Assembly (NCBI GenBank): GCA_029262005.1
Contig: JAJDAG010000042.1
Coordinates: 1-50,063, forward strand
DNA from: Candidatus Zhuqueibacterota bacterium
Lineage (GTDB): Bacteria; Zhuqueibacterota; Zhuqueibacteria; Oceanimicrobiales; Oceanimicrobiaceae
Direction of reading: 5' to 3'
DNA length: 50,063 bases
The position numbers were made by a program, and so were the translations under genes. Position 1 is the first letter of the stretch; each line of letters begins with the position of its first letter. The notes beneath the pieces were generated by a model. It was not told the origin of the DNA. It ran no database searches and saw nothing but the letters and a program-made list of their open reading frames with translations. Below are positions 15,605 through 47,766 of this stretch, piece after piece.

Positions 15605-16633
15605 TTAAAGCCATTTGCGTTTTGCAAAAACCGTTACCTGGGTTTCGTGAATGCGGGTCCACACCTGGTCCTCTACCGGGGTTATTTCGGCAATTAAAAA
15701 TCGCCGAACTTTGCCAAACCTGTGTTTAATTTCTGGCGGCTGCGCTGATGTCACAGGGTAGATCTTTCGAACTAACCCTGTAGAGGTATCACCGTTTTCA
15801 AATTTCAGAGTAACTTCTTCCGCATTTTTAAGCTGACCTTCGTGTGCCTCCTCAAAATAGGCTTTAATATAGTTCATGGATGTGTCTGTGATTTTTAGAA
15901 CCTGCTCCCCGGCCGTAATGACTTCGCCTTGCTTTTTGTAAACGGCTGAGATTATTCCTTCCTGCGATGCAGACAATGTTTCTTCACCTCTGATATCATA
16001 AGGTGAATGAGCAGTGTTGGCAGACAAAACAGTGCGCTGGCGTTCATAACTTTGCAGGGTGCGCAAGGCTGCTTTTAGCTCAATTTGAAGTTCGGCCAGT
16101 GCAAATTTTGCCTTTTCCAGCTCGAATGCGAGCTTGCGCTGTTCGCTTAGTAGAATGGCGTTGAGTTTGCGAAGTTCATTGGCCTGACGAACTTCATCGC
16201 TCAGCGTTTTTATCGATTTTTGCTTAAGCTCAATTCTTTCATGCAGCAAAGCAATCAGTCGCCTGGCATCAATTATTCTTCTTTGGTTCGTGTAATACTC
16301 TGCACGCACCGGCTCGAAGAAAACGGTCGCAGTTGAATCGGTTCTATCAAGCCAAACCAGTGGCATGCCAATTTTTACTGTATCGTTGATGGCGCAGCTA
16401 ATTTGCATAATTCGGCCGGTAGCTCTTGCCGTTACCAACGCTGTTCTCGCTTCAAGAAAGCCCACGCCTTTAATATAGTAGATTTTCTCAAAACCCCATT
16501 TGCTGGTGAAGGCAATGAGGAGCGAGATGGCAATCAGATAAATATATTTGCCCCACGACCTTTCTTTCTTCTGCCGCTGAGCGATTGACTTAATAAGATG
16601 CTTTTCCCTGCGTTTGAGTATTTTGCTACGCAT
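15605..16633 (-). CDS. HlyD-family membrane fusion/adaptor protein
   Basis: Periplasmic adaptor of 342 residues, the last gene of the exopolysaccharide operon. A lysine/arginine-rich cytoplasmic start is followed by one membrane helix (about 29-47). Next come a first lipoyl half-motif (EARTALVTARATGRIMQI, 61-78), a long coiled-coil hairpin (about 105-215, rich in RIDARRLIALLHERIELKQK-type heptads) and the second lipoyl half (SQEGIISAVYKKQGEVITAGEQVLKI). A beta-barrel domain (YIKAYFEEAHEGQL) completes it. In secretion systems such proteins bridge an inner-membrane transporter to a TolC channel. No ABC or RND transporter is nearby; the inner-membrane partner encoded here is a glycan synthase. 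It starts two bases after the TolC-fusion stop. Confidence 0.9.
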   Translation of the reverse strand: MRSKILKRREKHLIKSIAQRQKKERSWGKYIYLIAISLLIAFTSKWGFEKIYYIKGVGFLEARTALVTARATGRIMQISCAINDTVKIGMPLVWLDRTDSTATVFFEPVRAEYYTNQRRIIDARRLIALLHERIELKQKSIKTLSDEVRQANELRKLNAILLSEQRKLAFELEKAKFALAELQIELKAALRTLQSYERQRTVLSANTAHSPYDIRGEETLSASQEGIISAVYKKQGEVITAGEQVLKITDTSMNYIKAYFEEAHEGQLKNAEEVTLKFENGDTSTGLVRKIYPVTSAQPPEIKHRFGKVRRFLIAEITPVEDQVWTRIHETQVTVFAKRKWL

Positions 16634-16635
16634 GC

Positions 16636-18780
16636 CTATTTTTCTTTAAGGGTTGAATAGGTTTTGTAATCGTGAATTGCGAATCCGGAGAGAATTTCCC
16701 CGGCATCAATACGGGTGACAATTTGCGCCATAAATTGCCGAAGTGCCATCTTGGTCTTAAAATCATCGGCATTCAGGCCTAGAACTAAACGTTTGTCCAA
16801 TTCCGTAGTGTGTGGTGTGATATGACTTAACGCCGTTTGAATCGATATCAAACTTTTTCTTTTGTAGGCCATGAGGGTCACGCTGCTTACATTGGAAATA
16901 ATTTCACGCAAGGCTTGAACGTCAACCTTATGATAAAAAGTCGGCAGATCTATCCCGATTGGCAGTGCTGTGTTTTGTGATTTCAAGGCCACTTTTATCT
17001 GTATGATCGTTTCAAGCAAGCGTCTGAGCAATTCCGGCTTTTCCTTTTTCCATGCCGGCAGTGTGTGCGGTTCAATGTCGAGGTGCAGCATGTCGAATGT
17101 TGCCCCGACTTCTACTCTGCGATTGTATTCGATAATAAAATCGAGACCGGCAATCAGATGGTTTCTTTTACTGGGAAAAATCCACATCGGGTCGCCTATG
17201 AGCGCCGAAACTGAAATTGCATTTTGGTGCAGCCGCGTTATGGTTGTTTGCAGAATATTCGTGCTTTGGGCCGATGACATTATTTCGCGGTTGATTGAGA
17301 GAAAAACCTGGGTTAAGCCTTCGGTCTGACAAAATTGCACGAGGCGTTGCTGCTGAGCATCGTCGGCCAGGGTTTGCGCCGTGTTCCAGACCCAGGTTGC
17401 ATGCGATAATTCTGTTGGTGCTCCTGGTTTGTGCGCGAGTGTGCGGTTTAATTCACTCGGCCAGCGTAAACCGCAAAGATAGAGGAGCTCGTAGAAGCGG
17501 AGGGTCTTTTCGTGTTGCAAGTATTTTTTTCGCAACCGGGTTTTTTCGATTTGCACATCAAAGCGCAGCAAACGCAATCGATCCGTTTTGACTCTTTCCG
17601 GCAATCGTACGAGTTTCTCATTTTTAATTCGTTTGCTTTCGCGCTGAAATTCAAGTTCTTTTTCTATTTCCATTAACTGGTGGGTTGTCAGTCGCAGGCG
17701 GTCGTGTGCTTCGACAACGTTCGAACGTGCGACTGCCCTGGCATTTTCAGCGGCCACTTCCCAGGAAGCGGCAGTGGCCATCATTTGCGCCTTGCGTTTT
17801 CCGTGGGTGACCGGGAAGAGCAGCGGAAAAGCGAGACGGATTCCGGCTTCGGCGCTGCCGGTGATTTTTCCAGGATCGTGCCAGCGGTAACGGTAACCCA
17901 AATAAGGGGTGAAGTGGACATTTCTATATTCGGCGCTTTGCGCACGGCTGTTTTCGGCCACGCTTTTCGCCAGGAAAATCCGGGCCTGGCTCGCGTTGTT
18001 GACGGCCAGATTTTGCAGTTCCTGTTTTTTTATACGTAAAGCCTGGTACTCGATGGTGTCTAATGCAATCTGTGATGTTTGCAGGTTGAATAAGTCTGCC
18101 ATTTCCTGCTGTTGGCTGTTAAATCTGGCCAGACTGAATTCTTCCCGCCCTTTGCTTTTGATAAGTTCTTTTTCGATTTCAAAAATATCCGGTAGGAGTT
18201 TTTCGCCTTGTTCATATTGCTGTTTGGTGATTTTCAGCATTTTGTGATAAATTCTACTCAGGCGTTTCCGGCTCTCTGCTTCCTGGTGTGTTTGCAACAT
18301 ATCAATATAACGCGTTCGGAAATCAAGCAGCGCTTGGTTTAGAGCTGCGTTGGTTGCATGGTCTGCTGCCTGTAATTCTGCTTTTGCATTTTTTATTCGC
18401 GCTGAGCGTGTTTTCGTAACTTGTATAATGTCCTGACTTAATCTGAGGATCAGCGAGTTGCCTGCATTTAATTCATCGTCTGTAAGATCTATTCTGTCTG
18501 GCAGGTAGCGGTAACTTGCTTGAAACTCCGGCCAGTGTTCAACGCGTGTGGCTGACAAATTGTGTTTGGCTGCTCGCCGTTTTAACTCTGCTGCTTTTAT
18601 GGTGAGCGCCCGTGTCAGCGTCAGTTTTTCGAGATCATGAAATGTGAAAATTTGTTGTCCGAGCAGTGCGGATGTGAAAGGCAGCCAAACTGTAAACAAG
18701 AGCGCGATTGTCAGTTTCAGCCAATGCGGGGGTTTCGTGCATTTGTCGTTTAGTTTCTTTTGTTTCACAGCAGTTACCAT
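16636..18780 (-). CDS. TolC-like outer-membrane protein fused to a GH18-like TIM-barrel domain
   Basis: A 714-residue two-part protein. After a signal peptide (about 20-42), residues 45-445 look like an outer-membrane efflux protein: long amphipathic helices with two similar halves and TolC-type strands such as YLGYRYRWHDPG and EAGIRLAFPLLFP. Residues 462-712 form a separate domain with alternating strands and helices of a TIM barrel (TWVWNT, VFLSIN, VSALIG, LHLDIEP, IGIDLP, VTLMAYK, LVLGLN, GFAIHDY). DMLHLDIE (563-570) matches the glycosidase-18 signature DxxDxDxE except His566 at the second Asp, and MAY (637-639) resembles its MxY motif. I infer a polysaccharide export channel with an attached hydrolase or binding domain. 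Such a fusion is unusual for TolC proteins. Its first seven bases overlap the glycosyltransferase end. Confidence 0.82.
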   Translation of the reverse strand: MVTAVKQKKLNDKCTKPPHWLKLTIALLFTVWLPFTSALLGQQIFTFHDLEKLTLTRALTIKAAELKRRAAKHNLSATRVEHWPEFQASYRYLPDRIDLTDDELNAGNSLILRLSQDIIQVTKTRSARIKNAKAELQAADHATNAALNQALLDFRTRYIDMLQTHQEAESRKRLSRIYHKMLKITKQQYEQGEKLLPDIFEIEKELIKSKGREEFSLARFNSQQQEMADLFNLQTSQIALDTIEYQALRIKKQELQNLAVNNASQARIFLAKSVAENSRAQSAEYRNVHFTPYLGYRYRWHDPGKITGSAEAGIRLAFPLLFPVTHGKRKAQMMATAASWEVAAENARAVARSNVVEAHDRLRLTTHQLMEIEKELEFQRESKRIKNEKLVRLPERVKTDRLRLLRFDVQIEKTRLRKKYLQHEKTLRFYELLYLCGLRWPSELNRTLAHKPGAPTELSHATWVWNTAQTLADDAQQQRLVQFCQTEGLTQVFLSINREIMSSAQSTNILQTTITRLHQNAISVSALIGDPMWIFPSKRNHLIAGLDFIIEYNRRVEVGATFDMLHLDIEPHTLPAWKKEKPELLRRLLETIIQIKVALKSQNTALPIGIDLPTFYHKVDVQALREIISNVSSVTLMAYKRKSLISIQTALSHITPHTTELDKRLVLGLNADDFKTKMALRQFMAQIVTRIDAGEILSGFAIHDYKTYSTLKEK

Positions 18781-20087
18781 TGGATATATCTTTGACGAAC
18801 TTTGTAAGGTGCAAAAGGGTCTACATTCGAGTGTCGAAATACAAGTTCCTGGAAGTAGGCTTTTAAACGTACAAACTTCAGGAAAATTTTAAACGGGTTT
18901 ATCAATGGCAGGTAAAGCAAGAGCTTAAAATCTTCTGTTCTGTTTGATAATGCGATTGCCACCAGCAACTCGAGCAATTCTGCGCAGAAATAAAGACAGA
19001 AGTTGACAACTAACAGGGGCAAGAGAATATCTGTGAAATTTACAGCAATATCGAAAAGGTAGACAGCCGTTACAAATGATAACGCAACATGGTAGAAAAG
19101 CGAATCCACAAATGTGATCACATCTATGAGCCTGAAATTTTTGGAGTATGGATTAAAAATGTCCCGATGTTTTCTCATGCGGTTTTTTATCATGTTGCGG
19201 TCCCAGCGTGAGCGCTGGTTAATAAGGGCTCGAATGTTTGCAGGGACGTTCGTCAGGCAGATAGCGTCCGGCTGAAATGAGATTTTGTACCCCTTTTTAC
19301 GCACACGAATGGCGAGGTCTGAATCATTGCCGGGTCCGGGCTCGTGCCCGCCTATCGAATTCAAGCCGATGAGATTTCGGCGAAATCCTCCGAATGCACC
19401 TGAAATGATCGGCAGAATGCCTAATTTTGCGCGCACACGTCTGCCGATAGAAATGGTAAAAATATATTCGATTTGCTGCAAGTGAGTCAGCAGATTGTTG
19501 TTGCCGTTGCGTGGCCTGAGATTGCCTGACACCCCACCTACCTCTGGATCGGCAAAGGCGGTGAGCATTTTATAAATGGCATCTCTGTCAAAAGTCGTGT
19601 CTGAATCGACAAAGATAACGAATTCACCCCGGGTAAATTGGAGGCCGTAGTTAAGCACAGCGGATTTTCCGGCCCGTTCAGAAAATCTCGCATAAATGAT
19701 GTTGTCATTTTGGGCCAGTTTGTGGCAGATTTCAGGTGTGCCATCTGTGGAACCGTCATCGACGATAATCAATTGCAGATTTTTATAGGTTTGCTCTTGC
19801 AGCGACCGAACAGTCCAGCCGATTGTTTCCTCTTCGTTTAGTGCTGGAATGATAACAGTTACCAGCGGTGGGTTGTATTTTAAGCGTAACAAAAAGTCGT
19901 TGTCTCGACGGGGGCTGCGCTCTTTCAGTTTTTCATCTATAAGAATGAAAATATCGGTGAGAACGTAACGCGGAAAATCAAAAATAAAAAAATACCAGAA
20001 CACTCGAAATGCACCATATTCATCCAGGCTCAACAGATAATCAAAAGTATCGGCAATTATGTCCGGCATCATTTCAAGGTTTCCCAA
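18774..20087 (-). CDS. Processive family-2 glycosyltransferase (exopolysaccharide synthase)
   Basis: Inner-membrane glycan synthase of 437 residues, related to PgaC/hyaluronan/cellulose synthases. An N-terminal hydrophobic segment (about 28-50) is followed by the GT-A domain. Its motifs are VTVIIPALNEEETI (76-89), VDDGSTDG (109-116), the DxD metal site DSD (161-163), GND/SD (253-257) in place of TED, and the acceptor-site QRSRW (291-295), which marks a processive enzyme. At least three C-terminal membrane segments (about 325-400) follow and could form the translocation channel. There is no PilZ domain. The sugar cannot be predicted. The ATG lies 19 bases inside the end of the regulator gene upstream, and the stop overlaps the TolC-fusion gene by seven bases. 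Confidence 0.9.
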   Translation of the reverse strand: MGNLEMMPDIIADTFDYLLSLDEYGAFRVFWYFFIFDFPRYVLTDIFILIDEKLKERSPRRDNDFLLRLKYNPPLVTVIIPALNEEETIGWTVRSLQEQTYKNLQLIIVDDGSTDGTPEICHKLAQNDNIIYARFSERAGKSAVLNYGLQFTRGEFVIFVDSDTTFDRDAIYKMLTAFADPEVGGVSGNLRPRNGNNNLLTHLQQIEYIFTISIGRRVRAKLGILPIISGAFGGFRRNLIGLNSIGGHEPGPGNDSDLAIRVRKKGYKISFQPDAICLTNVPANIRALINQRSRWDRNMIKNRMRKHRDIFNPYSKNFRLIDVITFVDSLFYHVALSFVTAVYLFDIAVNFTDILLPLLVVNFCLYFCAELLELLVAIALSNRTEDFKLLLYLPLINPFKIFLKFVRLKAYFQELVFRHSNVDPFAPYKVRQRYIQW

Positions 20088-21535
20088 ATATTATCTAAGT
20101 TGGTGGCTGTGGAAGACAGGTCGAACACCTCGTATTTCAGCTTTAGCTCAACATTGAAACGTTTGTGGATATTTTCAGCCAAACGTTTGAATGCGATTTG
20201 GGTGCTGGCAGTATCTGTGTGGGTGAAAATGATCAAAATGTCACCACCGCTTAAATCCGTAAACATGTCGCTGGTTCGGAAGGTCTGCCCGATTATGGCA
20301 GCAAAATCCTTTTTGAATTTTCGCGAGTTCTTTAGCTGCTTTTCCGCAAGCGCTTCATTTGCAGCACTGAGGTTAAAACGTGCCAGCGTAGACGGGGTTT
20401 TGTAGCGGGTACAACGCGCTATTTCCAGACGGAGATATTCGGCGAACACTTCGTTTTTGTAGAAACCCAGTTCTTTTTTTAGAATGCCGAGGACGCCGGA
20501 GCCGGGCAGGACGCCTTCCTCTGCTGCGCGATAACCGGTCTCAGATATGACAAATTCCTGAATGGGGCGGATCTGCGCCTCTTCAGGGCCGAACACTGCG
20601 GCACAGACGAGACAAAAGCAGGAGAGAGCGGGTTCTGAAAAATTATGATTGCAATCTTGGCACCACATCACTTCAGAGGGTTTGTCGTAATCAACGCCAA
20701 TGTGCCGCAGCTCTTTGCTGCATTTAGGACAGATCAGTTTCATGCCGAGCTTGTACTCGGATTCGCGGCCAATGTAAGCACAGCGAAAGTGATGAATGGT
20801 GGTTTCTTCATTGATGTTTAAGGAGGCACATTTGGGGCAGATTTCACGAAAATTTATCTGGGTGTGGTCACAATGTGGACAAATGTTGACTTTATCAACC
20901 AGCTTGGCATTCAGCAATTGTGCTTCATGCACTGAGGCAAGAAAACTTATTTCTTCGCCTGCCCGCGTATTGAGCAGAAGTTGCACCAGTGGGTAGGTGT
21001 AGCCGGCTTTGGCGCGGTAGTTTCTCTGTGGCGACAATAGTTGTGGATCCCGGGAAAAAAAATAACGCAGCAGCAGCAGCCTGTTTTTTGAACTTTGCCC
21101 TATGGACTTAGGTAGCGCCTCCAGTTGGCGTAGGCGATTTTGAATTTGTGACAATTGGCCGAATATTTCAACCATGTCATTTTGCCTGACCGGTGAGGAC
21201 AAGACGGCATCGGTGACATCCGACAGCGACTCCCACTCTGTTTCGCCAATCACCAGCAGCGGTGTCAAAAAATGTTCGGACTCCGATCGCAGATCGTGTA
21301 ACGTCTGCCAGACCCATTGCTCGGTGTTGGCGTTTAAAATGATAAACTCTGCCTCGGGTAAAATGGTAGTGATGGTGAGATTTGCCAGAGTGGGCGACTC
21401 GGATATCAGTTTTTTTACAAAGAGATAGAGGACATCGTTTTCCGTTTCGGATAATAGAAACACCGGCCCCTTTGCTCTGGCGGCCGACGATACGGGCGTC
21501 GCTGTGTCTTGTGTCGCTATTTTGTATTCAAGCAT
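20069..21535 (-). CDS. Zinc-ribbon protein with degenerate GGDEF domain (TackOD1-like), exopolysaccharide regulator
   Basis: A 488-residue cytoplasmic protein and first gene of the exopolysaccharide operon. Residues 25-130 form a receiver-like alpha/beta domain without a clear phospho-Asp pattern. Residues 217-312 are cysteine-rich (CPHC, CPKC, HHFRCAYIG, CPKC, CQDC, CFCLVC), resembling the TackOD1 metal-binding output domain. Residues 365-475 have the layout of a diguanylate cyclase (RFNL, then RTSDMFTDLSGGDILIIF), but the signature is SGGDIL instead of GGDEF, so cyclase activity is doubtful; it may bind c-di-GMP/GTP or be structural. It probably controls the synthase downstream. The TackOD1 assignment is from memory of the cysteine spacing. 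Confidence 0.75.
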   Translation of the reverse strand: MLEYKIATQDTATPVSSAARAKGPVFLLSETENDVLYLFVKKLISESPTLANLTITTILPEAEFIILNANTEQWVWQTLHDLRSESEHFLTPLLVIGETEWESLSDVTDAVLSSPVRQNDMVEIFGQLSQIQNRLRQLEALPKSIGQSSKNRLLLLRYFFSRDPQLLSPQRNYRAKAGYTYPLVQLLLNTRAGEEISFLASVHEAQLLNAKLVDKVNICPHCDHTQINFREICPKCASLNINEETTIHHFRCAYIGRESEYKLGMKLICPKCSKELRHIGVDYDKPSEVMWCQDCNHNFSEPALSCFCLVCAAVFGPEEAQIRPIQEFVISETGYRAAEEGVLPGSGVLGILKKELGFYKNEVFAEYLRLEIARCTRYKTPSTLARFNLSAANEALAEKQLKNSRKFKKDFAAIIGQTFRTSDMFTDLSGGDILIIFTHTDTASTQIAFKRLAENIHKRFNVELKLKYEVFDLSSTATNLDNIWETLK

Positions 21536-31504: not shown

Positions 31505-34500
31505 ATGTGTTGCTCTTACGGAAAACTACTGAAACGGGGTCGTTACTTTCTGGCCATACTGCTCTTGCTGAGCATTCCAGCGCTTGCCTTCTGTCAATCT
31601 CTCACGATAAGAATGAATGATGTTTCTGCTGCGGGTGATTCGGTTCGTGGCATGGTGTCGGGTTTCCCATTCCCGGTCATTACCAGGCACATCTCTATCA
31701 TCGATTCGTCCACCGGTGCACCTGCGCTGGGTTTGGCTGACAGTTCGAGATGGCTCGGTGCCAACGAAACAGCACGGAATGGTCGTACGGTTAAAGAAAA
31801 CTGGCAGGTTTTACAGGAATATGCCGTTGACGATTCAATCAGGGCTAATTTATACGCACAACCCGATGGCCCTTTGCTTCGTGAAGTGACTCGTTTCAGC
31901 TTCCCGATTATTTCAACCAGCACAATGTTGGTAATGGATGTGAGCACGAGTATCGACACAGTGGTTGAATTGAATCTTGCCAAGAAAGGCGCCAACAGAT
32001 TTGTTGATGGCATGCGTGTGGGGTCTCCCCTCATAACCGACGAATATGACAGGGCCGGTGTCATTGAATTCAGGCGAAAAACCGCAACTGTTCTGAGCAA
32101 CTTTACCGACAACCGTAGTGATTTGCACCGTGCCATTAATTCGGCAAAGCCGATTGGCAGGAGTGGAACGCCACTCTATCTCGCGCTTAAACAGGCAATA
32201 AAACTCACCAGCAAAGAAGACCCAAACCGGATTCGCAGTGTCATTGTTTATACCGATGGGTTAAATAATCGCAGCGGCTCAACCATTGAGCAAGTCATCG
32301 ATGCTGCGAAAGAAAGCCGGATTCCTATTCATACAATTTATTTGCGCAGGAAAGGCGTGATAACTCCGAGCGACAAAGCTGCAGCGGATTCTTTGCGATT
32401 CATTGCTGAGGCCACGAATGGATTTTTCTTTACAACCATTGGCGGAGTTGAGTTTGAGCGGATTTATGAAAATCTTTCTAAAGTCACACAGAATTTTTAC
32501 CTGATGGCGCATCACAGCGCCGATGTTTGTGTTCGGGCTCCGGAACGGTTTGTCGAGGTAACCGCAAAAACCGCAGACGGCAGAATTGGCGTTGGCGCAG
32601 GCCGTTACACCGCACCCGGGCAAGCGAAATTTTATGATCTTCGGTTGACTGCCTCAGCCACGCAACGGGTTCTTGCTGTTGGTGACACAATCGATTTTAC
32701 TATACGCGTAGAGAATGTTGGGCCGGATTTGGCGTCGGCAGTCAGTGTGCAGCAGGTACTGCCACATGACACGCTCCGTTTTGTACTGGACTCCGGGGTT
32801 TCAGGTTCTCCGCAAATCTCAGTTACCGGTGATTCGTTGAACTGGTCTGGGTTGGTTGTACCGTCTGGCGCCACTATTTCACTTAGGTTTGCTGCGGTTG
32901 TTAGCCCGCAACTTACTCTGGGGGAGGCAGCAAAGGTCGTTACTTCCGCCTCTGTTGTGGCAGCCTGTGAGCAAAATGTTGACGACAATACTGTTTTTCT
33001 GCCTTTTGAGATAATTGCAAAACCGCCCGTTTATGATCTTGAATTAACAAATATTGCTTTTCCTGAAGCGGTCTTGCAAAATGAGGAATTTCGTTTTGAA
33101 TTGACCATGAAAAATAATGGGCCGGACACAGCAAGGGAGATTACGCTGGTCGATACACTTTTTCAGTTTGATTTGCTGCGTGACTCTTTGCGGTTTGATG
33201 TTGCGCCGGATTCCATTCGGGGCAATGTGTTATTCTGGCATTTCGACTCCCTGGCACCGAATGCTGTGCAAAAAGTCATTTATACGGCTAATTTGCCGGC
33301 CTGTGACTTGCTTGAAAATGCTCCGGCAGCGGTACGGAACCATGCATCGGTTCTGGCAAGATACGATACAAATCCAGCCAACAATTTTGCAAAAGCAAGC
33401 GTTGACATCACACCGCTGGATTGCTCATTTGTTGAGTTGGCTGTTCGCAAAACAGCGAGCGTTGACTCGGTTGAGCAGGGTGTGCTGTTTACCTACTTGC
33501 TTGAAATCAGCAACCAGGGTAGCAGAATTGCCCGGGAGGTCAACGTTTGGGACGCACTGCCGACACGTCTTAGAATCGCCAGTGCATCTGTGCTGCCATC
33601 GACCACGGTAAATTCAGATACACTGCAGTGGCATTTTGACGAGATCGCTGCAGCGGATACGATTCAGATTGCCTTGCAAGCGGAATTCTTGTGCGCGGAA
33701 TCACCAACGATTTTTCCTTTCATTCAAACAAATTTTGTCTGGTTGTCTGCGCTTGAAGATCGTGACGCCGGCAACAACCAGGACAGTGTAGAGGTTGTTG
33801 TCACTGGCTCGACATGTGCCACGCCGGCGGATTTTAAAATAGAAAAGCGTGTATCTCAGGATGTGGTGAAACAGGGGGAATTGTTCCGCTTTGACATTGA
33901 TGTTGTTCAACGAACGGGTCCCGATGTTGGCAATGTTGCTGTTTTTGATGTACTGCCTGATTTTTTTCAGCTCATTGAAGCAAGCCCGGCCCCCGCAAAT
34001 GGTTTGAGCGCAGATACCTTGCAATGGCAATTTAACAGCGCTGCTTTTGTCGACACAAGTATTTCGCTTTTGTGTCAGGTGCCATGTGATGTAGATTTGC
34101 CGACCGCTGTTTTAGAGTGGGTGAATGTGGCCTGGCTTTCTGCTGATGGCGACACCAATTCTGATAATGATCGAGACAGCGTCACAGTGACTTTTTCCGG
34201 AACGCTGTGCGATTCAGCCAATGTTGACTTTGAGCTGCGTAAGTCGTCGTCCTCTCAGACTGTAAAACAAGGTGAGGAATTCACCTGGCAAATCGACGTG
34301 AATAGATTAACCGCCGCGCACTCAGATCCGGTAAATGTTTTTGATGTGTTACCTGAATTTGTTGAAATCATCAGCGCCAGTTTGCCGCCCCTGAATGGCC
34401 TTGCCGCAGATACATTGTTTTGGCAGTTCAACGGCTCGCTGCAGGACACCACCATCGAGTTGACAGCCCTGGTTCCTTGCGGAGTTGCAATGCCTTCTGC

Positions 34501-35695
34501 AAGTGCAGATTTGCTCAATACCGCCTGGATTGCAGTTGTAAACGACACCAATTTTGTCAATGATCGCGACAGCGTCACAGTGACTTTTTCCGGGACGTTG
34601 TGCGACTCAGCCAAGGTTGATTTTGAGCTGAGTAAGTCGTCGTCCTCTCAGAGTGTAAAACAGGGTGAAGAATTCACCTGGCAAATCGACGTGAAAAGAT
34701 TAACTGCAGCGCACTCAGGCCCGGTAAATGTATTTGATGTGTTGCCGGAATTTGTTGAAATCGTCAACGCCGGTTTGCCGCCCCTGAACGGTTTTACCGC
34801 AGATACATTGTTTTGGCAGTTCAACGGCTCGCTGCAGGACACCACCATTGAGTTGACAGCCCTGGTTCCTTGCTCGGTTTCGTTGCCTTCTGCAAATATA
34901 AGTTTGCTCAATACCGCTTGGGTTGCGGCCACAAACGACAGCAATTTAACCAATGATCGCGACGATGCTGTTGTAACAATCTCTGCACCGTGCCGCAGCG
35001 ATGAATTCGATCTGTCAGTGGAAAAATCAGCGAGTCAGGACACGGTTTTTGTCGGCCAGGAATATTCTTACAGAATTCGTATTCACAATCATGGGCCTGC
35101 CCGGGCCACCAACATCACAGTGGCTGATGCCATACCTGCTGATCTGCTTTTTTCCGAGTTCAATTTTGCCCCATTTGCCACCAGCGAGCCGGACACACTT
35201 GTGTGGCATTTCGATGAACTCGCACCGAATACAACAATTGAAATCAATTATAATGCAATGTTACCCGGCTCAACCGAGCTAATTGGTGAGCCTGTGCGAA
35301 TAAACACAGCCCGTGTTAAAACGGCTAACGACGTCAATGCTGCCAATGATCAGAGCAGCGCCACCGTTGTCTTTGAAGCGCTCAGAAATTGTAAAAAACT
35401 GATGCTGCTCGACCGCAACGTTTTCGCTCCTTCCGCTGGCGACCCGCTGCAAATTATTGTGGATGTTGACTCTGACAACAACGTGAGCCTTGATGTGTAT
35501 GACATCACGGGTTACCCAATCAAAAATATTGTCAAAGGGCGCGTTCCAGTTGGCCGCAGGCAAACGTTTTTTTGGGATGGCACAAGCGATGATGGTCGTA
35601 ATACAGGCAGTGGCATATATGTGATTTTGTTTCAAGGCCAATTGTCCACGGGCAAAATTATAGAGTGTGACAAAAAAGTGATCATTGTACGATGA
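31505..35695 (+). CDS. Secreted VWA protein with seven DUF11 repeats and a FlgD/Por-type C-terminal domain
   Basis: A surface or secreted protein of 1396 residues. A signal peptide (about 10-30, ending AFCQ) is followed by a unique region. The von Willebrand A domain (about 138-330) has a MIDAS with DVSTS, the SGTPLY threonine and YTDG, so metal-dependent ligand binding is likely. Seven DUF11-like beta repeats begin near residues 376, 510, 641, 776, 908, 1039 and 1167, each opening with a D/E-L-x-(K) strand and a GxxFxFxIxV segment. Repeats 5 and 6 are nearly identical. The last 100 residues (NVFAPSAGDPLQI ... WDGTSDDGRNTGSGIYVILF ... KKVIIVR) resemble FlgD-Ig or Por/type IX sorting domains. 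The role may be adhesion or surface structure. Its stop overlaps the next gene by four bases. Confidence 0.85.
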   Translation: MCCSYGKLLKRGRYFLAILLLLSIPALAFCQSLTIRMNDVSAAGDSVRGMVSGFPFPVITRHISIIDSSTGAPALGLADSSRWLGANETARNGRTVKENWQVLQEYAVDDSIRANLYAQPDGPLLREVTRFSFPIISTSTMLVMDVSTSIDTVVELNLAKKGANRFVDGMRVGSPLITDEYDRAGVIEFRRKTATVLSNFTDNRSDLHRAINSAKPIGRSGTPLYLALKQAIKLTSKEDPNRIRSVIVYTDGLNNRSGSTIEQVIDAAKESRIPIHTIYLRRKGVITPSDKAAADSLRFIAEATNGFFFTTIGGVEFERIYENLSKVTQNFYLMAHHSADVCVRAPERFVEVTAKTADGRIGVGAGRYTAPGQAKFYDLRLTASATQRVLAVGDTIDFTIRVENVGPDLASAVSVQQVLPHDTLRFVLDSGVSGSPQISVTGDSLNWSGLVVPSGATISLRFAAVVSPQLTLGEAAKVVTSASVVAACEQNVDDNTVFLPFEIIAKPPVYDLELTNIAFPEAVLQNEEFRFELTMKNNGPDTAREITLVDTLFQFDLLRDSLRFDVAPDSIRGNVLFWHFDSLAPNAVQKVIYTANLPACDLLENAPAAVRNHASVLARYDTNPANNFAKASVDITPLDCSFVELAVRKTASVDSVEQGVLFTYLLEISNQGSRIAREVNVWDALPTRLRIASASVLPSTTVNSDTLQWHFDEIAAADTIQIALQAEFLCAESPTIFPFIQTNFVWLSALEDRDAGNNQDSVEVVVTGSTCATPADFKIEKRVSQDVVKQGELFRFDIDVVQRTGPDVGNVAVFDVLPDFFQLIEASPAPANGLSADTLQWQFNSAAFVDTSISLLCQVPCDVDLPTAVLEWVNVAWLSADGDTNSDNDRDSVTVTFSGTLCDSANVDFELRKSSSSQTVKQGEEFTWQIDVNRLTAAHSDPVNVFDVLPEFVEIISASLPPLNGLAADTLFWQFNGSLQDTTIELTALVPCGVAMPSASADLLNTAWIAVVNDTNFVNDRDSVTVTFSGTLCDSAKVDFELSKSSSSQSVKQGEEFTWQIDVKRLTAAHSGPVNVFDVLPEFVEIVNAGLPPLNGFTADTLFWQFNGSLQDTTIELTALVPCSVSLPSANISLLNTAWVAATNDSNLTNDRDDAVVTISAPCRSDEFDLSVEKSASQDTVFVGQEYSYRIRIHNHGPARATNITVADAIPADLLFSEFNFAPFATSEPDTLVWHFDELAPNTTIEINYNAMLPGSTELIGEPVRINTARVKTANDVNAANDQSSATVVFEALRNCKKLMLLDRNVFAPSAGDPLQIIVDVDSDNNVSLDVYDITGYPIKNIVKGRVPVGRRQTFFWDGTSDDGRNTGSGIYVILFQGQLSTGKIIECDKKVIIVR
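34181..34966 (+). repeat. Tandem 393-bp duplication encoding two DUF11 repeats
   Basis: Two in-frame, almost identical units, 34181-34573 and 34574-34966, each 131 codons. Shared words include GTCACAGTGACTTTTTCCGG, AATTCACCTGGCAAATCGAC and GTTCAACGGCTCGCTGCAGG. Differences cluster in a few codons, and the second copy diverges more towards its end. This suggests a recent tandem duplication inside the VWA gene. Confidence 0.85.
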
Positions 35696-38600
35696 TGACA
35701 GCGAAGAAAAAAAGCATCTTTTCAAAAGTCGCCAGGCATATTTGCTGCCGCACTTTCCGACTCTGGTTGCTGGTTGCGATTTTGTTATCGGGTTATTTTT
35801 GTGAATCGGGATATACCCAGGTCCGCGCCGGCTCTGCTTATTTAAAAATTGTGCCGGGTGCTCGTCAGCAGAATCTGGGCGGTAGCCTCACCGCCGGCCT
35901 TGATGAGCCTTATTCTATTTATGCCAATGCTGCAGCAGTTGGTTTTTTGCGCGAGACGCAATTTTCTTTCAGTCACAGCCGCTGGATTTCTGATATCACC
36001 AATTCATCGGTGCTATTCGGCAAGCAGTTTCACCCGTGGCAAAAACGGTTAAATCTGGCTTTGGGCTTCAATTATCAGGGCGTTGATTTTGAATCTACGG
36101 GAGGTTTGCAACCTGCCACAAGTTCACAAGATTATCTTGCCACACTTAGCTTGGGATTTCCAGTCGTTGGTAAACGTCACTCGTTGGCCCTGGGAATTAC
36201 TGCGAAACACTTATACACAAAACTGGATCAATATTCCGGTAACGCTTTTGCTTTTGACGGTGGTTTGCTCTACCGCACCTCAAGGTTTCGTTTGAGCCAA
36301 GGGCCGCGTGGGATGTTTGGTATCTTTTCACTCGGTCTATCATTAAACCATGTTGGCAAACCCATCACCTTTATTACTGAAAGTACGCCTTTACCCTGGA
36401 CTGTTCGAGTTGGTTCATCGTTCAATTTTGGTCGCCATGATGGGCCACAAACACAGTTGCTTTTTGATTATCACAAAGTGAATGATGAAGTGCACACATT
36501 CAGCATTGGCGCCGAAATTCAGAATTTTTTTAGTATTTTCCTGTCAGATTCATCCAGGTGGTCTCGGCTCATGTCAGTGCGAGGCGGTTACCATTTTAAT
36601 TCAAATCGCAACACACGCATTCTCAGTAAATTTACATTTGGTCTGAGTATTCGTCTGGATGATTACATGAATAATTCACTTTCTGCCGGCAGAAAAAGAA
36701 ATCATGGCGGACGAATAGAAGTTTCCAGACCCATACAAAACTCAGCACTGCGCGGGGATTTTGGCTTTTATAATAGTGCTACTTTTACCAATGTTTATCA
36801 GGGGAGCGGCACATGGTTTAAGGTTGGTCCGGAAGCGTACGATTTCGAACACTCGCCGTACCATTCAGTCAATATCGGGCAAATGCCGGATAGTCTTTAC
36901 TGGACCAGCGAACCTGTTGAGTTTGCCTGGCAACCAGCAAATGATCCGGATTTGTATGACCAGGTCAATTATTTGTTGATGATTTCAACTAACAGCGCCT
37001 CTGTGCAAAAACGCCTGACAGCCGTGCAGGATTCAGGCGCTGCGGCTTTTTCGGAAAATGCCTTGCAACATCAACTTAAAGTGGCAAGAGAAGGCAATCA
37101 AAGCCGGGTCAGCTTTGCCTATATAAAGGAAAATTCTGACAATCAAAACGCTTTTCTAAGCAGCATCACGGGGCTGAACTTTGACCTGGCCGACAATGAT
37201 GACATACTAAAGTGCCGGCTTCCCGCTCAAGCTGATTCCGGCAGTTATTATTGGTCGGTACTGGCCTACGACAAGAATTTGCATTTTCGTCCCATTGCCG
37301 AAGAAGGGCGAAACATTCGACGGTTCCATATCCGCCGTTACCCGGATCTTGATATTCGGATTACAAACGCCAGGTGGCAAAAAGGCACCTACCTGGTTGA
37401 TGTTGTTCTTAGCGATTTAAACGAAACCATTTTGCCCGAAGAGTTTCCGGTGCAGATAGATGTTTTGTCTACAAGCGGTTCGACAGTGCTGCCGCAAACA
37501 ACCATTTATGGGCCCCGGTTTCACCACATCCAAAGAGGCGAATCCATTACGATTCCAGTGAATTGGGATCCACGTTTCGCGAATATTCATGCATCGGTGA
37601 ATTTAGCGCCTGCAGTGGGTAGCGTCCATGAAAAAAATTATCTGAGCAGCCGTGATGTCTACTCCAACAACAGCGAGGTTGACACGCTTGTGTGGTATGA
37701 TCTGGCTGTGAAGAAAACGGTTTCCGTTGCTGAGTTCAGCCCACATGTGCATTTTAATTCAGGCAAGTCAACACTGTTGCCTTTAGATAGACAGGAATTA
37801 GCGAGGCTCAGTAAAGCCTTTAACGACAGTGTATTAAGTAACTTTTATATCAGCGTGAATGGACACACGGATCAGATGGGGTGGCGTGGTTTGTCTCCTG
37901 CTGCCGGTATTCAAAGAAACTGCAGGTTGTCTTCGGACCGTGTGCAAAGTGTTAGTGACTTTTTAACAGGTATGGGCCGGGTTCGTCCTGCACGCGTCAG
38001 CGTCACTGGTTTCGGGCAAACTCAGTTGCTTGTGAAAAATGCCAAGAGTGCAGCAGATCACGCCAGAAATCGTCGCGTGGTTGTGCGAATGTTTCAGCAA
38101 CCCTGCCTCAATATTACCAATGCAAATTGTACCATCGTTGCACCATGCACCGCCACTCCGGTCAACCTTGTCGATTCAAACGAAGACATCAACTATGAAA
38201 TCTCCATCAGCAACATTGATGGCTTTGCTGCGAAGAATTTTGAAGTGCATGAACAGGTTCCGGCAACAATGACCACATTAAACTATTTTCCCAGGCCGCC
38301 GGACGACATCATAAAAGGGGCCTCCAAAGAACTGATCTGGCGTTTCCCGAGGCTGGGACGTGGCGCTACTCCAATTCAGGTTAAGTATACCGGCAAGATG
38401 CCAATGAAGGTGGCCGGCGCTCAACAAGTAACCACGGTTACCCAGGTTGCATTTCCCAATGCGGCTGACAGGAGTGGACTAAACAACCGGGCTAGCGCAG
38501 ATGTTTACCTCATTGGAAAACCTGGACCGCCGGAGCCATTTTACCATACGGTGAAATGTAACGAAACATTGTCATTGCTGGCTCAATATTACTATGGGGA

Positions 38601-39018
38601 TGTGAAAAAGTATCTGAAAATATTTCACTCGAACAGAGGTACGGTAACTCATCCTGACAGAATCTATGACGGCGCCAAGTTGGAGATTTCAGGCAAACTG
38701 GCCCAGCCTGGCCTTCCGGCAAAGTCGTTGGGGCTGCCGTATGTGAAAATTCAAAAGTCTGGTGAGCCAATAATTGGCTCCAAAATTATGGGCAGTTACA
38801 CTTATAATCACTGTGAGCCTGAGGGACAGTCACGGTTGCGCTGGTATGTGAACGATGCACTGGTGCAGGAAGATCGTGGCCCGGGAGGCCGTAGCGAATA
38901 TCTGGTCGGAAACGTCCCTGGGGCAATCATTCGTTTTGAGGTTACCCCCGTAACTGAAGCGCCGCATTCATTAGCTGGTACGCCTGTTTCCATCGACTTT
39001 GGGCCTGTGAAAAAGTAG
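35692..39018 (+). CDS. PorV-like barrel fused to OmpA, DUF11 and LysM-like domains
   Basis: A 1108-residue mosaic envelope protein. After a signal segment (about 20-42), residues 45-320 read as a PorV/PorQ-type outer-membrane barrel (AYLKIVPGARQQNLGGSLTAG, YSIYANAAAVGFL). A fibronectin-like segment follows (VEFAWQPANDPDLYDQ). An OmpA peptidoglycan-binding domain lies about 683-800 (VHFNSGKSTLLP, NGHTDQMG, ARNRRVVVRM). A DUF11-like repeat (about 820-940) comes next, then a LysM-like unit (YHTVKCNETLSLLAQYYYGD, about 950-1000) and a C-terminal Ig-like segment. The first bases overlap the preceding stop (ATGA), so it is coupled to the VWA/DUF11 protein and may be its outer-membrane anchor or export partner. 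That partnership is inference. Confidence 0.82.
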   Translation: MMTAKKKSIFSKVARHICCRTFRLWLLVAILLSGYFCESGYTQVRAGSAYLKIVPGARQQNLGGSLTAGLDEPYSIYANAAAVGFLRETQFSFSHSRWISDITNSSVLFGKQFHPWQKRLNLALGFNYQGVDFESTGGLQPATSSQDYLATLSLGFPVVGKRHSLALGITAKHLYTKLDQYSGNAFAFDGGLLYRTSRFRLSQGPRGMFGIFSLGLSLNHVGKPITFITESTPLPWTVRVGSSFNFGRHDGPQTQLLFDYHKVNDEVHTFSIGAEIQNFFSIFLSDSSRWSRLMSVRGGYHFNSNRNTRILSKFTFGLSIRLDDYMNNSLSAGRKRNHGGRIEVSRPIQNSALRGDFGFYNSATFTNVYQGSGTWFKVGPEAYDFEHSPYHSVNIGQMPDSLYWTSEPVEFAWQPANDPDLYDQVNYLLMISTNSASVQKRLTAVQDSGAAAFSENALQHQLKVAREGNQSRVSFAYIKENSDNQNAFLSSITGLNFDLADNDDILKCRLPAQADSGSYYWSVLAYDKNLHFRPIAEEGRNIRRFHIRRYPDLDIRITNARWQKGTYLVDVVLSDLNETILPEEFPVQIDVLSTSGSTVLPQTTIYGPRFHHIQRGESITIPVNWDPRFANIHASVNLAPAVGSVHEKNYLSSRDVYSNNSEVDTLVWYDLAVKKTVSVAEFSPHVHFNSGKSTLLPLDRQELARLSKAFNDSVLSNFYISVNGHTDQMGWRGLSPAAGIQRNCRLSSDRVQSVSDFLTGMGRVRPARVSVTGFGQTQLLVKNAKSAADHARNRRVVVRMFQQPCLNITNANCTIVAPCTATPVNLVDSNEDINYEISISNIDGFAAKNFEVHEQVPATMTTLNYFPRPPDDIIKGASKELIWRFPRLGRGATPIQVKYTGKMPMKVAGAQQVTTVTQVAFPNAADRSGLNNRASADVYLIGKPGPPEPFYHTVKCNETLSLLAQYYYGDVKKYLKIFHSNRGTVTHPDRIYDGAKLEISGKLAQPGLPAKSLGLPYVKIQKSGEPIIGSKIMGSYTYNHCEPEGQSRLRWYVNDALVQEDRGPGGRSEYLVGNVPGAIIRFEVTPVTEAPHSLAGTPVSIDFGPVKK

Positions 39019-47381: not shown

Positions 47382-47438
47382 AATTTTCTCACGGATTTTT
47401 TGGGGCCGATTTATTTTAAGTGTTCGAATTTCCCGCCG

Positions 47439-47585
47439 CTTAAACGGTTCAATAACACCTTTGGTCACGATACAGGCGATGCGATGTTGCTCGAATTTAA
47501 TAATATTTTTCAAAGGATGAGCCGAAAAGAAGATATAGCATGCCGATTCGGTGGCGAAGAGTTTGTGCTTGTTTTGCCGGGCGCG
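47439..47585 (+). pseudogene. Fragment of a GGDEF (diguanylate cyclase) gene
   Basis: About 49 codons encode LKRFNNTFGHDTGDAMLLEF and then IACRFGGEEFVLVLPGA, the core of an active-type GGDEF domain with GGEEF at 47550-47564. The sequence before this has no cyclase character in any frame, and after LPGA the frame ends within five codons. Neither half of a full domain is present, so this is a broken remnant. The open frame extends upstream to 47181 but only by chance, overlapping the antisense glycosyltransferase remnant. Confidence 0.75.
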
Positions 47586-47766
47586 ATCGGGCCGTTGTAG
47601 CTGAACTAACTCTAAAACAGAATGGAGTAGATGTCGAGCAAGTTGAATTAATGCAGAATGAGCTTTGAACCGGCATATGCTGTCTATGGACACATAGAAC
47701 TTTGACATTAAATAGCCATGTCTTCTATTAAATAGTGCTTGGCCGAAAGCTCGTCTATTTCTGATA

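Follow-up and report, generated by a model that had tools for sequence, protein, structure and literature searches.

A conserved four-gene operon linking a processive-type glycan synthase to a HlyD adaptor and a barrel-fused TolC channel, a candidate exopolysaccharide export system

Gene content and distribution of the operon

The 50,063-nucleotide stretch of contig JAJDAG010000042.1 from a Candidatus Zhuqueibacterota bacterium (hereinafter designated the window, meaning the whole stretch analyzed) carries four minus-strand genes at positions 15605-21535. They encode a regulator with a TackOD1 domain and a degenerate GGDEF domain, a membrane glycosyltransferase of family 2 (GT2), a TolC-type channel fused to a TIM barrel and a HlyD-type adaptor (Table 1). 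A reading made from the letters alone (hereinafter designated the original prediction) had described this tightly packed cluster, and re-examination bears it out: each open reading frame (ORF) was recovered, and the remeasured junctions are -19, -7 and +2 bases. The GT2 gene starts with TTG, a start conserved in its relatives. Promoter and terminator scans returned no more matches than shuffled sequences.

Table 1. Coordinates of the four genes and of the domains and motifs within them
Feature	Position	Strand	Remark
TackOD1 and degenerate GGDEF regulator	20069-21535	-	488 aa; ORF confirmed
TackOD1 zinc-ribbon domain	20549-21094	-	PF18551, E=2.7e-56
Degenerate GGDEF of regulator	about 20078-20473	-	C-terminal GGDEF-like region
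Predicted cyclic di-GMP (c-di-GMP) I-site RTSD (R420-D423)	20267-20278	-	third Arg is R451
Membrane GT2 processive-type synthase	18774-20087	-	437 aa; ORF confirmed
GT2 catalytic domain	about 19197-19859	-	PF00535, 4.5e-39
QRSRW motif of GT2	19203-19217	-	hydrophobic C-terminal segments in GT2 as well
TolC-type channel fused to TIM barrel	16636-18780	-	714 aa; ORF confirmed
TolC-type outer-membrane channel part	about 17476-18639	-	OEP PF02321, 2.2e-15
GH18-like TIM barrel	about 16639-17412	-	C-terminal part of TolC gene
HLDIEP active-site motif of barrel	17068-17085	-	DxE of GH18-like signature
HlyD/EmrA-type periplasmic adaptor	15605-16633	-	342 aa; ORF confirmed

A search of 82 genomes of the phylum with the TolC-barrel protein identified full-length relatives in 10 more genomes, and wherever no contig end interrupts the locus, the genes run in the order TackOD1-GT2-TolC/barrel-HlyD. 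Of two weaker matches, one is a barrel on its own and the other is partial. Identity to the window is 61-65% for GT2 (40% in one divergent case), 43-51% for the regulator (24% in the divergent case) and 20-40% for the channel and adaptor. The full-length regulator and the TolC-barrel protein occur in the same genomes, the one mismatch being a contig that ends inside the GT2 gene.

A wider scan over genomes of 84,980 species yielded 283 regulator relatives, the best 80 of which were read; with the window and one further locus (L023) they make up 82 loci. The original prediction had proposed looking for this neighborhood in other genomes, and all four genes indeed stand together in 62 of the 82 loci, several of the remainder being cut by contig ends. 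One of the refutations named in the original prediction, a lack of joint conservation in other genomes, is thereby contradicted. Clustering of the same four genes across so many phyla is far beyond chance. The commonest order is TolC-HlyD-Tack-GT2 (n=43), followed by the window's own order, Tack-GT2-TolC-HlyD (n=15), and by variants that retain all four genes (n=4). Carriers belong to KSB1/Caldithrix metagenome-assembled genomes (MAGs), which include the nearest named relatives of the window, as well as to Planctomycetota, Omnitrophota, Gammaproteobacteria, WOR-3 and Bacteroidota, and the cultured ones include Roseivirga, Rheinheimera, Prolixibacter and Brumimicrobium; in the phylum of Brumimicrobium, about 4% of sampled genomes (10/247) carry TackOD1. 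On the GT2 tree, the TolC-HlyD-Tack-GT2 order forms one clade with 100/100 support (n=53; Bacteroidota, Gammaproteobacteria and WOR-3) and the Tack-GT2-TolC-HlyD order occupies the remaining lineages. The gene orders thus follow the GT2 tree, which indicates joint inheritance of the four genes with about one rearrangement, the strongest sequence-derived sign that the four proteins function jointly.

Synthase, barrel-fused channel and adaptor

Over 74 GT2 relatives, residues D111, DxD161-163, D255 and the QRxRW motif are invariant and D110 is nearly so. The GT2 profile matches hyaluronan synthase (HAS) structures and the match reaches into the membrane region; together with the D, DxD, D set and QRxRW, this marks the protein as a probable processive synthase. 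Its best NCBIfam model is PgaC/IcaA (TIGR03937; 155.6 bits, below the cut-off of 422.3), while the CelA model scores only 35.7 bits against a cut-off of 699 and the domain scan found no PilZ match. The closest GT2 families, PgaC, NodC and HAS, are polymerases that use N-acetylhexosamine.

The TolC-barrel protein begins with a signal-like hydrophobic stretch (residues 21-41), and its first 435 residues model as TolC with a predicted local distance difference test score (pLDDT) of 85. Foldseek matches of this part reach TMt values of 0.77-0.79, open TolC scoring 0.77 by target length. Its OEP domain and fold place the window's protein among the TolC-type outer-membrane factors, and an OEP match is also found in 12/30 proteins of the other gene-order group.

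The C-terminal 260 residues of the window's protein, scanned alone, have no Pfam match. The AlphaFold model of this region (pLDDT 94.5, predicted TM-score 0.91) nevertheless consists of eight alternating strands and helices that close a complete TIM barrel, in agreement with the built-in glycosidase-like domain of the original prediction. Pfam detects GH18 in the barrels of 12/30 relatives, and in an alignment with chitotriosidase the FDxxHLDIEP segment lines up with the GH18 signature DxxDxDxE. The putative catalytic residues D568, E570 and Y639 are kept in 68/68, 67/68 and 66/68 relatives, respectively, in proteins whose overall identity is about 20-35%. Sequence similarity to a solved Cellulomonas fimi protein (10yv) extends along the entire barrel (E=2e-18). 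Structural matches to GH84, GH164, GH191 and GH18 all have moderate scores, and the GH18-like label therefore rests on the motif and the Pfam matches rather than on Foldseek alone. PgaB- and PelA-type families were also considered, and neither was matched in the 30 barrels scanned. GH18 enzymes use the acetamido group of their substrate, which, together with the kinship of GT2, suggests a polymer that contains N-acetylhexosamine.

The barrel is fused to the channel in nearly all units, and some Bacteroidota loci have no detectable barrel. It also occurs without TolC: in a Planctomycetota MAG it forms a small protein, secreted or lipoprotein-like, that is encoded near the operon (L038:2860-3729), and genome G051 has it in a standalone protein (L031:9079-10347). 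Among the 30 barrels scanned, one has a type IX sorting tail. A tblastn search of plasmids found only barrels that lack TolC, on two plasmids of Bacillaceae; these distant relatives include one on a Priestia megaterium plasmid (L120:6001-6819), near a GT4 gene, and a second at L121. A scan of viral contigs with the TolC-barrel protein found no match.

The adaptor matches HlyD (PF16576, 5.4e-10), and the best solved match of its profile is EmrA (7.8e-19, profile positions 12-291).

A TackOD1 regulator with a degenerate GGDEF domain

The zinc ribbon noted in the original prediction is present and corresponds to a named domain, TackOD1, the function of which has been called obscure (PMC5847659). 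The regulator scores 190.6 bits against the PF18551 cut-off of 32, and most Cys residues of this CxxC-rich domain are nearly invariant among relatives. The degenerate GGDEF domain likewise stands, the GG[DE]EF motif being present in 0/80 regulator relatives; GGDEF catalysis has been lost.

A predicted I-site is nevertheless retained in the window's gene-order group (n=20), with R420 in 20/20, D423 in 20/20 and R451 in 19/20. In PelD and BcsE, an I-site of this kind within a dead GGDEF domain binds c-di-GMP (PMC8461298, PMC7112168). In the other gene-order group the three residues occur together in only 13/60 members, and universal control of the system by c-di-GMP was dropped as an explanation because the intact site is confined to a minority there. 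Possible sources of c-di-GMP are at least five strong GGDEF matches at other places in the window's genome. A short open frame in the window (47436-47588, plus strand) contains a further GGDEF fragment (model positions 42-92) and is possibly a frameshifted or decayed gene.

TackOD1 genes at four other loci (L112, L114, L115 and L118) adjoin a HisKA kinase, the REC-TackOD1 architecture being confirmed where scanned (L112), and at L112, L114 and L115 an MshEN-T2SSE (PilB-type) ATPase lies near the TackOD1 gene as well. KSB1/Caldithrix relatives (L032-L035, L041 and others) have a conserved divergent gene about 2.2 kb upstream of the regulator, which is an MshEN-T2SSE protein in L033 and is absent at that place in the window. 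TackOD1 may be a general regulator of surface machinery that links pili and exopolysaccharide.

Proposed export route, alternatives and related systems

From the families of the proteins, their invariant motifs and the linkage of the genes, set on the operon's observed gene set, folds, residue conservation and co-inheritance, we infer a synthase-dependent exopolysaccharide system with a TolC-type conduit through the envelope, and give this reading a probability of roughly two in three; polymer identity, synthase-conduit contacts and direction of transport are part of the same proposal. The membrane GT2 would polymerize a nucleotide sugar, probably of the N-acetylhexosamine type, and pass the growing chain through a membrane channel of its own. 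The HlyD/EmrA-type adaptor would take the place of BcsB or tetratricopeptide-repeat (TPR) scaffolds and join the synthase to a trimeric TolC-type channel. TolC C-termini are periplasmic, which would place a GH18-like barrel on the periplasmic end of each subunit, and its fold and retained catalytic residues suggest a role in trimming, editing or clearing the chain close to the channel. The TackOD1-degenerate GGDEF protein would act as a cytoplasmic switch that, in the window's group, probably senses c-di-GMP through the intact I-site, as PelD does; in the other group, mostly Bacteroidota, the I-site is largely lost and another signal would be needed. A more ambitious form of the proposal, in which synthase, adaptor and TolC build one continuous polymer pipe with three hydrolase barrels ringing the channel under TackOD1/c-di-GMP control, and which would represent a distinct and widespread secretion class, is tentative and falls somewhat short of an even chance.

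Several observations weigh against the proposal. An RLS-type TolC-docking motif is strict in only 7/71 adaptors, all from the window's gene-order group, and is imperfect in the window's own adaptor, so the motif is not used here as general proof of TolC docking. Other TackOD1 proteins examined in the phylum include REC-TackOD1 response regulators that adjoin a histidine kinase and an MshEN-T2SSE pilus ATPase; TackOD1 thus has more than one job and is no exopolysaccharide-specific mark. The genome has many resistance-nodulation-division (RND) pumps elsewhere (well over ten ACR_tran matches), and the adaptor or channel could therefore pair with a distant partner. In favor of the proposal, and as the original prediction held, no ATP-binding cassette (ABC) or RND transporter is present among the 25 commonest families of the 127 immediate neighbor genes, and apart from the RND pump of Thiodiazotropha-type loci, this neighbor scan found no ABC, RND or major facilitator superfamily (MFS) inner-membrane transporter gene accompanying those of the adaptor and channel, although a rare pump could hide beyond those 25 families. 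Two-component proteins, glycosyltransferase 9, UDP-sugar dehydrogenases and deacetylases are among the 25. A last point against concerns the barrel: His stands where the GH18 motif has its second Asp, and strand 6 reads MAY, which keeps MxY of the GH18 motif MxYD and loses the Asp after Tyr, making activity less than certain.

These substitutions, together with the Lys that replaces the catalytic Glu in the divergent member L030, speak for a variant of the same export system in which the barrel, instead of being an enzyme, is a collar that binds glycan or a domain for folding or gating of the channel. This variant is compatible with exopolysaccharide export and is the best placed of the alternatives, but we consider it unlikely: binding alone would hardly demand a nearly invariant Asp, Glu and Tyr trio at such low overall identity, and the same barrel stands alone in other proteins (L038 and L031). 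We judge it clearly less probable that GT2 makes a short oligosaccharide or a lipid-linked sugar, which HlyD and TolC export with a flippase or MFS transporter encoded elsewhere. Many GT2 enzymes are not processive, and the adaptor is nearest EmrA, whose usual partner, EmrB, is an MFS transporter; on the other side, the QRxRW motif, the D/DxD/D set and the hyaluronan synthase match in the membrane region mark a processive synthase, and no transporter is conserved beside the unit. Least probable of all is ordinary efflux, with HlyD and TolC serving an RND pump elsewhere and the synthase an unrelated neighbor. The ACR_tran matches of the genome speak for it, as do the loci of Thiodiazotropha-type symbionts (L053 and L056), the only ones at which an RND pump was seen beside the unit; the pump (Pfam-confirmed in L053) is encoded just upstream, accompanied by a HlyD of its own. 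Against it stand the joint inheritance of HlyD and TolC with GT2 across many phyla and both gene orders, a channel that in nearly every unit is fused to the glycosidase-like barrel, and the co-occurrence of the TolC-barrel protein with the regulator inside the phylum.

Among known systems, the proposed exopolysaccharide route resembles several in part. In mixed-linkage glucan (BgsA-BgsB) and alginate (Alg8-Alg44) synthesis, a GT2 is paired with a membrane-fusion-type protein; those units are not known to include a TolC or a hydrolase-fused channel, and they use other regulators. The PNAG (poly-N-acetylglucosamine) system PgaABCD shares with ours its best-scoring GT2 model and, in PgaB, a glycosidase-like periplasmic domain that accompanies the synthase. 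It differs in that our GT2 misses the PgaC equivalog cut-off and our unit has a TolC-type export channel and neither a deacetylase nor a PgaA TPR-porin. EmrAB-TolC shares the TolC fold and an adaptor nearest EmrA, with the difference that here a glycan synthase stands in place of the MFS, ABC or RND partner. A TolC that carries a hydrolase is found, to our knowledge, in none of the XcsAB-TolC, Pel and PNAG systems. Pel also encodes a cytoplasmic degenerate GGDEF protein with an RxxD I-site, PelD, together with its synthase (PMC8461298, PMC7112168); the present operon lacks a PelF-type GT4 and other Pel components, has TackOD1 in place of GAF, and its barrel has no PelA-type family match.

The original prediction had named BgsA-BgsB as the nearest precedent. 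A closer one comes from Thermosynechococcus, where the synthase XcsA, a HlyD protein and TolC were proposed in 2018 to form a tripartite route for cellulose (Maeda 2018, as recounted in PMC12430437); that model is unvalidated, partly since the genes are not in one operon (PMC12430437). At the gene level the two systems match, with an inner-membrane GT2, a HlyD-type adaptor (XcsB) and a TolC channel but no pump. They differ in that XcsA is a GT2-PilZ cellulose synthase whose system has scattered genes, a separate endoglucanase and a generic TolC, whereas the present GT2 is PgaC/HAS-like and lacks PilZ, the hydrolase-like barrel is fused to TolC itself, and the genes form a tight operon with a TackOD1-GGDEF regulator in many phyla. 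Of the distinct export architecture originally suggested, an operon with a TolC fused to a hydrolase-like barrel holds, while the synthase-HlyD-TolC idea had already been proposed (PMC12430437): a known idea is found here in a widespread, operon-encoded form with different parts. No paper describing this gene set was found in the literature searched, which lacks most subscription papers.

With the three-part logic of XcsAB-TolC held in one tight operon in many genomes, including those of cultured hosts, the idea that a glycan synthase can feed a HlyD-TolC tunnel becomes directly testable. The abstract of PMC8277102 gives only ABC, RND and MFS proteins as inner-membrane partners of TolC; if the proposed route is correct, a synthase would join this list and TackOD1 would gain a concrete context.

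Elsewhere in the window, two large adjacent plus-strand genes (31505-39018) encode a protein with a VWA domain and seven DUF11 repeats (1396 aa) and an OmpA-domain protein (1108 aa).

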